A stretch of 64,000 nucleotides of DNA from Solitalea lacus. Its GTDB lineage: Bacteria > Bacteroidota > Bacteroidia > Sphingobacteriales > Sphingobacteriaceae. A model generated the notes under the pieces. It searched no databases. It was not told the origin of the DNA and was given only the letters and a program-made list of their open reading frames with translations. Numbering within the stretch: position 1 is the first letter of the stretch; the number at the start of each line of letters is the position of its first letter. Below are positions 2,105 to 4,747 of this stretch, piece after piece. The translations under genes and the position numbers were made by a program. The stretch covers positions 558,001 through 622,000 of the forward strand of contig NZ_CP091740.1 in NCBI RefSeq assembly GCF_022014595.1, read 5' to 3'.

Positions 2105-2126
2105 CGCTTTGTAAGTGTCTATTTGT

Positions 2127-2134
2127 CAAATGTA
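2127..2134 (-). promoter_or_regulatory. -7 box for the secreted-protein gene
   Basis: On the minus strand this reads TACATTTG, a full match to TAnnTTTG, 22 bp upstream of the start codon at 2104. The TGTTAAA repeat array lies just upstream of it. Confidence 0.45.
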
Positions 2135-2155
2135 AGGTGGTGAATGGTGAAAATT

Positions 2156-2183
2156 TGTTAAAGCGATGTTAAAAAGTGTTAAA
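2156..2183. promoter_or_regulatory. Three phased TGTTAAA direct repeats, probable response-regulator operator
   Basis: TGTTAAA occurs at 2156-2162, 2167-2173 and 2177-2183, that is, at steps of 11 and 10 bp, about one helical turn. A related TGTCAAA lies at 2124-2130, roughly three turns upstream. Direct heptamers at 11-bp steps are the usual binding pattern of OmpR/PhoB-type regulators, and the gene for one is in the adjacent operon. The array lies between two divergent -7 boxes (2127-2134 minus, 2210-2217 plus), so it could control both directions. Confidence 0.6.
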
Positions 2184-2188
2184 TGTTA

Positions 2189-2217
2189 TTGTAGCTGTAA
2201 TTTGCTGATTAGTTTTG
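2189..2217 (+). promoter_or_regulatory. Promoter of the histidine kinase / response regulator operon
   Basis: TTG at 2189-2191, an 18-bp spacer and TAGTTTTG at 2210-2217 fit the Bacteroidota -33/-7 pattern. The ATG at 2238 follows 21 bp later. This rules against the longer in-frame reading that begins upstream of the promoter at 2166. Confidence 0.55.
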
Positions 2218-2237: not shown

Positions 2238-4037
2238 ATGAAAAAGAAAGGGTTTGTATTTACAGTAATTGCCATTGGCTTGGGGTTAGTAGGGCTTTTG
2301 TGCATGCAAGGTTATTTCTTGTATGATTCCTACCGGCTTAAATCCCAGTTGTTTGATCAGTCAGTAAATACGGTTTTACAAACGGTAGCAGCAAAACTTG
2401 AAAAAGGTGAAGTTCTTCAAATTATAAAAACCAGGATAAATCCAATTATAAAGATTGAGAAAGACTCTGCATTAAAGTTGCCTCCTCCTCCTCCCAAAGA
2501 AAAGAAGCATAAAAGAATAAAACATCATAAGAGTGTTGAAGAGGTAAAGATAGTTAGATCATTTGCACCGGAACCTGCTGAGTGGGTGAGAAAGGACTCT
2601 TTATTCAATAGCCCAAGGGTAATGGTTTTTACACCACAAGGTGATGAAATGATTTATACTCACCCGAAAAGATGGAGAAACGCTGCCTCAAAGTTTAAGG
2701 TCTTAACGGATAAACAGCGTCGTGTAATTGTTAGGGTTGGTCCAGAGGGAAAGATTGATACCAGTATTATCCTTTTTCATAGTCAAAATATTCCGCCACA
2801 CCCTCCAATGCCTCCTAATTTTCGAAATCAACATGAACTAAGAATTGAACAACGAATTTCCACAGTTGATGAACCAGAAGATGTTGAAAAAGATAAATTA
2901 GTAAGAGCCTGGATTGATTCAGTTTCAAGGTTTAAAAAAAGGATTGAGGTTTTTGAGAGAATTGCTGCAGAGGCTGATGTGCAAAAGCGCTCCTTGTTGG
3001 ACAGAGTTAAGCCTCATGAGATTGATTCATTGTTAAAAAATGGGTTTAAACAAGCAGGAGTTGATCTTGATTTTCAGTTTTCATTAACGAATGATAGTAG
3101 TAAGGTTGTCTATAAAACAGTTTCAACTAAACAGAATACATTGCAAGGCAAAGACAATTGTTTTCAAACTACATTATTCCCACAGGATGTGTTGCATAAT
3201 GCTGGGATATTAACTGTAGTGTTCCCTGATAAGGCTGATTTTATTATGGAAAAAATGGGAGTAATAATCATCGCTTCTTCATTAATTGTTTTAGTAATTA
3301 TGGCCTGCTTTGGAGTAACAATAGCTGCGTTGTTGAGGCAAAAGAAGCTTTCTGAAATGAAAAGCGATTTTATTAACAATATGACCCATGAGTTTAAAAC
3401 TCCGGTTGCTACTATTATGTTGGCAAGTGAAGCTTTGCGGGATGAACAAATGGCTGCCGATAAAACTATGGTAAGCAGATACGCAGGTATTATTTATGAT
3501 GAGAACCTTCGATTGAGTAGTTATGTTGAGCGGGTGTTGAGTCTTGCCCGTTTGGAAAAAAGTGATCTAAGGCTAGATAGGAAACCTGTTGTGATGCATG
3601 ATCTCATTTCAGCGGTGGCGGATAGCATGGATCTTCAATTTAGAAGACGAAATGCACAAATAAATTTCGATTTTCAAGCAACTGAATCTGTTATTTTGGG
3701 AGATGAATTACACCTTAATAATGTGATTTTTAATTTGCTGGACAATGCCCTTAAATATTCAGCAGTGGATCCTAAAATTATTATTGCTACTCAAAATTTA
3801 GGTGACTTATTGCTCATTAGAGTTACAGACAATGGAATAGGCATGACACGTGAGCAACAAAGTCGCGTGTTCGATCAATTTTACCGGGCTCATACAGGAA
3901 ATTTGCACAATGTGAAGGGTTTCGGTTTGGGCTTAAATTATGTGTATTCAATAATTAAATTGTTAAAAGGAAATATATCGGTTAAAAGTGAACCTCAAAA
4001 GGGCAGTACTTTTGAACTAAGTTTTACATTGAATTAA
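2238..4037 (+). CDS. Membrane sensor histidine kinase with large proline-rich sensor region
   Basis: A 599-residue kinase from the ATG at 2238. One membrane helix is at about residues 6-29 and a second at about 341-366, leaving a periplasmic sensor region of ~310 residues. That region holds two proline runs (LPPPPPK at 81-87; NIPPHPPMPPNF at 184-195), a Lys/His-rich patch at 87-98 and no recognisable PAS or CACHE domain. The cytoplasmic part has a HisKA domain with phospho-acceptor His384 in NMTHEFKTPVAT. It is followed by an ATPase domain with the N box NNVIFNLLDNALKYS, the G1 box DNGIGM and the G2 box GFGLGLNYV. No HAMP domain is evident between TM2 and HisKA. It is co-transcribed with the regulator 17 bp downstream. 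The ligand is unknown. Confidence 0.88.
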   Translation: MKKKGFVFTVIAIGLGLVGLLCMQGYFLYDSYRLKSQLFDQSVNTVLQTVAAKLEKGEVLQIIKTRINPIIKIEKDSALKLPPPPPKEKKHKRIKHHKSVEEVKIVRSFAPEPAEWVRKDSLFNSPRVMVFTPQGDEMIYTHPKRWRNAASKFKVLTDKQRRVIVRVGPEGKIDTSIILFHSQNIPPHPPMPPNFRNQHELRIEQRISTVDEPEDVEKDKLVRAWIDSVSRFKKRIEVFERIAAEADVQKRSLLDRVKPHEIDSLLKNGFKQAGVDLDFQFSLTNDSSKVVYKTVSTKQNTLQGKDNCFQTTLFPQDVLHNAGILTVVFPDKADFIMEKMGVIIIASSLIVLVIMACFGVTIAALLRQKKLSEMKSDFINNMTHEFKTPVATIMLASEALRDEQMAADKTMVSRYAGIIYDENLRLSSYVERVLSLARLEKSDLRLDRKPVVMHDLISAVADSMDLQFRRRNAQINFDFQATESVILGDELHLNNVIFNLLDNALKYSAVDPKIIIATQNLGDLLLIRVTDNGIGMTREQQSRVFDQFYRAHTGNLHNVKGFGLGLNYVYSIIKLLKGNISVKSEPQKGSTFELSFTLN

Positions 4038-4054: not shown

Positions 4055-4747
4055 ATGGGCAAAAGAGTATTGTTAGTTGAGGATGATCCAAATTTGGGTA
4101 TGATTTTGCAAGAGTACCTTCAATTAAAAGGAGGTTATAATGTAACCCTGTGTGTTGATGGGGAACAAGCATTGGAAACATTTCAAAAATTTAACCATTA
4201 TGACGTCTGTATTTTGGATGTAATGATGCCTAAAAAGGACGGCTTCACTTTAGGTAAAGAGATAAGGGAATTAAATGATCGTGTGCCTATTATTTTTGCT
4301 ACTGCCAAATCAATGTTAGAGGATAAAATTCAGGGGTTTAACATTGGTGGTGACGATTATATAACCAAGCCATTTCGCATTGAAGAATTACTTCTCCGCA
4401 TTAATGCCCTTCTCAAGCGCAGTAATCTTCAATCCGAAGAAGAAAAACTTCCTGAGCAATATAAAGTTGGCTCAATGTTATTTGACCCTGTTACTCAGGA
4501 AATCCATAATGGATACCAGGCGCTGAAACTATCAGCAAAGGAGTCAGAGTTGCTGCATTTACTATGTAAGCATAAAAACGATGTGCTCAGCCGTGAACAA
4601 GCCCTGGTTTCAATTTGGGGAAGTGATAATTATTTCAATGCACGTAGTATGGACGTTTATATTAGCAAACTCAGAAAGTTGCTGAAGTCTGATGATTCTA
4701 TTGAGATTATCAACGTACATGGAAGAGGTTATAAGTTGATTTATTAA
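4055..4747 (+). CDS. OmpR/PhoB-family response regulator
   Basis: A 230-residue regulator. The receiver domain (about 1-120) has the acidic pair E9/D10-D11, phospho-acceptor Asp55 in VCILDVMMPKKDG, the switch Thr/Ser region IIFATAK and the conserved lysine in DYITKPF. The winged-helix DNA-binding domain (about 133-230) ends with YISKLRKLLKSDDSIEIINV and GRGYKLIY, as is usual for this family. The gene follows the kinase by 17 bp in the same operon and is almost certainly its partner. The three TGTTAAA repeats upstream of the operon are the likely binding site, which would make the system autoregulated and would also place the divergent secreted protein under its control (inference). Confidence 0.93.
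   Translation: MGKRVLLVEDDPNLGMILQEYLQLKGGYNVTLCVDGEQALETFQKFNHYDVCILDVMMPKKDGFTLGKEIRELNDRVPIIFATAKSMLEDKIQGFNIGGDDYITKPFRIEELLLRINALLKRSNLQSEEEKLPEQYKVGSMLFDPVTQEIHNGYQALKLSAKESELLHLLCKHKNDVLSREQALVSIWGSDNYFNARSMDVYISKLRKLLKSDDSIEIINVHGRGYKLIY

Follow-up and report, generated by a model that had tools for sequence, protein, structure and literature searches.

The 64,000-nucleotide stretch of Solitalea lacus DNA analyzed here, referred to as the window, contains a sensor kinase operon and a divergent gene for a secreted protein, which are separated by an intergenic region carrying a phased array of TGTTAAA repeats. The kinase gene (2238-4037, plus strand, its start placed by N-terminal conservation) encodes 599 amino acids (aa) in which a domain search found HisKA and HATPase_c. 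It is followed after 17 nucleotides (nt), and is thus adjacent in one operon, by the gene of an OmpR-family response regulator of 230 aa with Response_reg and Trans_reg_C domains (4055-4747, plus strand), the presumed binder of the array. On the minus strand, at 1370-2104, lies the gene of a 244-aa protein with a signal peptide assigned by eye and a C-terminal DUF3244-like beta-sandwich. The reading put forward here, to which we assign a probability of about 0.8, is that the RprY-like regulator encoded in the same operon uses the array as its operator and thereby autoregulates this operon.

Direct reading of the letters confirmed the core of the original prediction, namely that three exact TGTTAAA copies begin at 2156, 2167 and 2177, one helical turn apart (11 and 10 base pairs, bp). 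All three are on the plus strand: the first (2156-2162) has a GTTAA core at 2157-2161 which is kept in the genus members L016-L018, the second (2167-2173, core 2168-2172) belongs to the exact TGTTAAA-N3-TGTTAAA of the family loci described below, and the third (2177-2183, core 2178-2182) is nearest to the promoter of the kinase operon. A degenerate fourth half-site, GTGAA at 2147-2151 (plus strand), extends the phase upstream, 10 bp before the core of the first copy, and is found at the same phase in four of four genus members (L015-L018). The complete unit consists of four half-sites at 10, 11 and 10 bp, GTGAA-N5-GTTAA-N6-GTTAA-N5-GTTAA. The TGTCAAA that had been counted as a further copy is present on the plus strand at 2124-2130, but was rejected as a member of the array because it is not conserved in three congeners and overlaps the -7 box of the divergent gene.

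Single TGTYAAA words are found in the window at chance frequency (44 against 47.3 expected), and it is the phasing, rather than the frequency of the word, which is the unusual feature of the array. Throughout the 4.40-megabase genome, TGTTAAA-N2-5-TGTTAAA occurs at six places, two of them in the array, against two in a reversed-letter control, and a triple phased GTTAA occurs twice against none. The other triple array of the genome (L014:1501-1527, G000:C1:4173847-4173873) lies between an S9 peptidase gene and a gene named MoeA-like by eye, and two congeners (L326, L379) keep it only in part.

Conservation of the array in related species had been set beforehand as a check, and the array proved to be widely kept. 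Of 60 genomes searched, 53 have a kinase match below an E-value of 1e-60, among them that of the window. In the family set, the family being read as Sphingobacteriaceae, for which 30 loci including that of the window were fetched (L015-L044), the exact TGTTAAA-N3-TGTTAAA stands just upstream of the kinase in 30/30 loci, a TAnnTTTG box follows 22-30 nt beyond the pair in 29/30, and a third exact GTTAA is in phase in 14/30. Of the 17 loci (L078-L094) that represent other families of the class, ten have the phased pair together with the box, and several of these ten carry three or four GTTAA words. A set of named orthologues was also assembled from the best 80 of 589 loci, reduced to 79 as the kinase of L279 runs off its contig. 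GTTAA-N5/6-GTTAA was found at most 250 nt upstream in 62 of these 79, in 45 cases with the box, whereas a dinucleotide shuffle gives an expectation of 0.26, the opposite orientation 0 and reversed letters 1. Pair-bearing titles include Sphingobacteriaceae, Pedobacter, Cyclobacteriaceae, Spirosoma, Winogradskyella, Flavobacteriaceae, Bacteroidales, Prolixibacteraceae and one Candidatus Kapaibacterium. Other open reading frames (ORFs) of the named loci, used as a further control, gave a raw count of 8/371 with the pair, seven of them being same-type kinases missed by the script filter and the last a corA gene beside a second array. By these comparisons, the array is an apparently old and widely kept footprint of the kinase-regulator promoter. 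It is hardly credible that the repeats are AT-rich chance words, as the frequency of the single word might suggest, or an element intrinsic to the promoter that no specific factor binds, since controls come nowhere near the conservation of the phasing, orientation and position of the repeats.

The array is placed in a fixed relation to the promoter of the kinase operon. The -7 box of this promoter, TAGTTTTG (TAnnTTTG), was read directly at 2210-2217 on the plus strand, together with a -33-like ATTG at 2188-2191 which fits the TTTG consensus of this element weakly. The divergent gene has its own -7 box on the minus strand at 2127-2134 (CAAATGTA on the plus strand, that is TACATTTG on the minus strand), kept in 4/4 genus members and in each of them 21 nt from the array. 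The claimed position of the array between a minus-strand -7 box and a plus-strand -33/-7 promoter is thus borne out, with a weak -33 element. The available part of one source describes TAnnTTTG as the -7 consensus of sigma-A in Flavobacterium psychrophilum (PMC9723704). A general sigma-70 promoter scan, which by its description covers no other promoter type, returned no promoter in 1900-2400, and the accompanying terminator scan was empty. In the window, 27 nt lie between the end of the last GTTAA core and the -7 box. When identical promoters were collapsed and both the pair and a box 20-36 nt away were required, this same gap of 27 nt was found in 60 of 85 distinct promoters, with 28 nt in 19, 26 nt in four, 29 nt in one and 21 nt in one, so that 79/85 have a gap of 27-28 nt. 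The position of the array relative to the -7 box being fixed, contact with RNA polymerase is suggested.

With the NCBIfam RprY model, whose cut-off is 370, the regulator itself reaches 308.6 bits, and the next model gives 184.6 bits; the regulator is called RprY-like because RprY is by far the best model and yet the score is below the curated cut-off. The name RprX-like for the kinase rests on its partner regulator, as no RprX model is among the 25 models shown. A regulator-sized ORF follows the kinase within 400 nt in 27/30 family loci, the script having found none in L021, L022 and L038. The distribution of the array follows that of the kinase. Where there is a kinase match below 1e-60, 42 of 53 genomes have the exact N3 pair; where there is none (G010, G012, G025, G034, G046, G049 and G053), one of seven does (Fisher p 0.0014), namely G010, which is 76% complete. 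Similarly, the triple array is present in 30/53 against 0/7 (p 0.011). Kinase promoters account for 31 of the 53 rows of the triple-array search, in 22 genomes (manual count), and the reversed-letter control gave ten matches.

The original assignment of the array to the OmpR-type regulator at 4055-4747 gains strong support from conservation, the distance to the box and the co-occurrence with the kinase, and the array is very probably bound by the RprY-like regulator. Binding and control of the operon by a different protein, for instance another OmpR-type regulator, would find candidates in the six other full-length matches to the regulator in the same genome, and sites of the OmpR family resemble one another. 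This is nonetheless improbable, given that the triple array is concentrated at the kinase operon and absent from the genomes without the kinase match.

Operators of the PhoB/OmpR family have their half-sites arranged head to tail at intervals of one helical turn, and either precede the -35/-33 element or overlap it. The array in the window matches them in its direct repeats at 10-11 bp, in its fixed orientation and in its promoter position, and differs from them in half-site sequence and in the Bacteroidota promoter elements. With the RprY-like regulator as binder, two phosphorylated dimers would occupy the four head-to-tail half-sites, all on the same helix face and immediately before -33, and would set the transcription of the kinase-regulator operon, most likely by positive autoregulation. 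Activation is the likelier mode of action because 27-28 nt separate the end of the array from the -7 box and the array lies upstream of -33, a position typical of OmpR/PhoB activators. The same position speaks against the array being an RprY-like repressor site mediating negative autoregulation. Such a function, although it agrees with the description of Porphyromonas gingivalis RprY as a repressor in the available text of two papers (PMC6032018, PMC3646045) and with copies of the repeats located close to a -7-like element at the bamA genes of relatives, seems unlikely but deserves to be kept in view.

The original prediction also extended joint control to the divergent secreted-protein gene. 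While conservation argues for control of the kinase operon, that of the secreted gene is plausible but less strongly supported. The match of the 244-aa protein to DUF3244 is below the cut-off (23.2 bits against 25). Its structure model has a mean predicted local distance difference test (pLDDT) score of 51.9 and is confident only in the C-terminal beta-sandwich, which weakly resembles DUF3244 structures, the best of these entries having an E-value of 0.0057 and no match reaching 0.001 or below. A CpxP-like fold is not shown by this model, which is poor outside the sandwich, and the domain search of the protein gave no LTXXQ (CpxP) match. Across 29 family loci (L041, which has no TAnnTTTG box, was dropped), a divergent protein with a signal sequence and an NGDT-like motif was recognized by eye in 11. 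In another 11, no divergent ORF of at least 60 aa lies within 350 nt and the array is kept, four have only a divergent ORF of 61-67 aa, and three have another ORF. A type IX secretion system (T9SS) sorting domain was found in 4/4 secreted proteins of this kind that were scanned (L380 twice, L156, L088); for the window's own protein, the domain search gave only the sub-cut-off DUF3244 match.

Two other genomes have an array at a secreted gene that does not adjoin the kinase. In G023 (L156, G023:C95 about 212220), corA is located between the kinase and the secreted gene; one array is at the kinase promoter, and the interval from corA to the secreted gene holds a second triple array. In G026, the secreted gene is followed by a second T9SS-tailed one, which is not adjacent to the kinase and has its own complete four-half-site array directly upstream (L380:1274-1309, G026:C45:6673-6708). 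Both cases speak for control of the secreted genes through this type of site. Because the array sits at the -33 region of the divergent promoter in this genus, the secreted protein is probably co-controlled here, as the -7 box and its spacing in the four congeners also indicate; the loci which keep the array without a divergent gene weaken the case for such co-control. These arguments could be pushed further, to an array belonging to the secreted gene with its nearness to the kinase being incidental, as the 21-nt spacing and the separate secreted genes with arrays of their own would allow. This appears very improbable, however, with the array present at the kinase in 30/30 family loci, including those with no divergent ORF or only a very short one, and with a fixed spacing to the -7 box of the kinase.

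Beyond the kinase operon, the exact pair recurs in the family. In 32 genomes, TGTTAAA-N3-TGTTAAA occurs 231 times against four times in the reversed-letter control (manual sum), and the ten other spacings (N4-13) together occur 182 times. Outside the window's genus, the contrast is 224 for N3 against 143 for N4-13 together, or about 14 for each other spacing. From 17 other genomes of the family, 100 listed non-kinase regions were fetched, yielding 101 sites; kinase promoters and eight rows (four from G011, one from G014, three from G016) were left out of the fetched rows. Of these exact pairs, 57/101 adjoin seven recurring gene groups, which were named from one representative each, the remaining members being assigned by BLAST clustering. 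The groups are dapF/degP (16 sites, 15/17 genomes), bamA (11 sites, 11/17 genomes), kup with a small T9SS-tailed gene (11 sites, the genes being divergent around the exact pair in 11/17 genomes, e.g., L204 and L199), bamD (8 sites, 8/17 genomes), BamP-like and Spy-like genes (four sites each, both below the model cut-off) and a MoxR gene (three sites). The bamA site of L147 has, by eye, four half-sites in the same 10-11-10 phase, two of them degenerate. A looser pattern with the -7 box led to three genes for FKBP-type isomerases (L108, L114, L124) and one OmpH/Skp gene (L120). The other 44 sites comprise a BamH-like cluster and sites without a recurring neighbor. This cluster, with 12 protein entries from 11 genomes and a BamH score below the model cut-off, was set aside because its sites (e.g., L157) are mostly, by eye, inside the conserved 3' coding end of the upstream gene, where coding constraint could explain them. 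A recurring promoter type, a phased GTTAA pair followed by ATAAATTTG or ATAACTTTG, was also noted in 19 family genomes (manual row count), and the three genes inspected behind it are the FKBP-type isomerase genes just named.

The site thus lies, in other members of the family, beside genes for outer-membrane assembly and periplasmic folding, which points to outer-membrane protein folding as the sensed process. Judging from these target genes, we lean toward a family envelope-folding stress response similar to Cpx and sigma-E.

Several observations weigh against the operator reading or parts of it, the envelope role included. The phased pair with box was not seen in 7/17 loci from the other families, two of them ending at a contig end, and no pair was found in 17/79 named promoters, eight of which have Chitinophagales-type titles. 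Moreover, the sampled genomes are related and their counts are not independent events. The regulator falls short of the NCBIfam RprY equivalog cut-off, and the targets reported for P. gingivalis RprY, in the available parts of the sources, differ from the genes adjoining the array. The bamA repeats stand nearer to the -7-like element than do those of the kinase promoter, which could mean repression. In F. psychrophilum, genes of protein quality control and envelope stress have been linked to sigma-54-type promoters, which is another route (PMC9723704, available part). Finally, the window's own genus does not follow the family. GTTAA-N5-GTTAAA is not enriched over the reversed-letter control in its four genomes (39 against 68: G000 11/24, G001 9/9, G002 11/19, G003 8/16), and the 300 nt upstream of degP, bamA, bamD and kup contain the phased pair in 0/16 stretches from the four genomes, the start codon being approximate for kup and, in one genome, for bamA. 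Exact TGTTAAA-N3-TGTTAAA occurs seven times within the genus against 39 for N4-13 together. A search of the genome for further phased pairs, also set beforehand, did not reveal a regulon in this genome or genus, where one is unsupported; the regulon of the array appears to be small or rewired there, and the envelope role is taken from relatives for this reason.

Among known systems, RprX/RprY of Bacteroides fragilis and P. gingivalis shares with the window a kinase-regulator pair, and its RprY model is the one with which the regulator scores far best. Gel shifts described in the accessible text (PMC3646045) show RprY of P. gingivalis binding to its own promoter, and this RprY, unlike the regulator of the window, has no partner kinase. 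A word search for motif and consensus found neither in PMC3646045 and PMC6032018, where the single GTTAA in each lies within a primer. The Cpx system of Escherichia coli offers other parallels. In this bacterium, cpxP is divergent from cpxRA, and the window also has a divergent gene for an exported protein beside its operon; degP is among the Cpx targets, and in the family genomes it too adjoins the array. By contrast, the bamA and bamD genes of E. coli are targets of sigma-E and not of Cpx. The CpxR motif reported in the part of the source at hand is GTAAA-N5-6-GTAAA (PMC9600279), with the same spacing as in the window, but the half-site of the window is GTTAA, and the array is thus no CpxR box. 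Likewise, the regulator of the window reaches 142.9 bits with the CpxR model, below its cut-off of 341. The system of the window would then work like Cpx without being a member of Cpx by the models tested.

Little seems to have been written on how Bacteroidota detect faulty assembly of outer-membrane proteins. The words RprY and two-component are absent from the available text of two 2025 papers on the Bacteroidota beta-barrel assembly machinery (BAM) complex (PMC12578637, PMC12611786), and no such regulator for Bacteroidota was found in the titles and abstract beginnings of the open-licence literature searched. Similarly, neither an RprY motif nor a link between RprXY and BAM genes was found in the accessible portions of the open-licence papers searched (PMC3646045, PMC6032018, PMC5706477, PMC4072883, PMC12578637, PMC12611786, PMC9723704, PMC13067283, PMC9600279). 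The presence of the repeat beside genes for building and repairing the outer membrane in relatives suggests a little-known envelope stress system. A more tentative proposal, which we place slightly short of even odds, is that Bacteroidota use RprXY-like systems as a general response to envelope-folding stress. This response would have an autoregulating four-half-site GTTAA operator and would drive, in Sphingobacteriaceae, DegP, BamA, BamD, Skp/OmpH, FKBP isomerases and Spy-like and BamP-like proteins, with the divergent T9SS-tailed exported protein as a possible feedback partner. With an operator motif, a named regulator and a list of candidate targets, the question is directly testable. The rprX and rprY genes have been reported as essential in B. 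fragilis, with no established reason given in the available part of the source (PMC4072883). If true, a general RprXY-like envelope response would combine the roles of sigma-E and Cpx, and could help to explain this essentiality.
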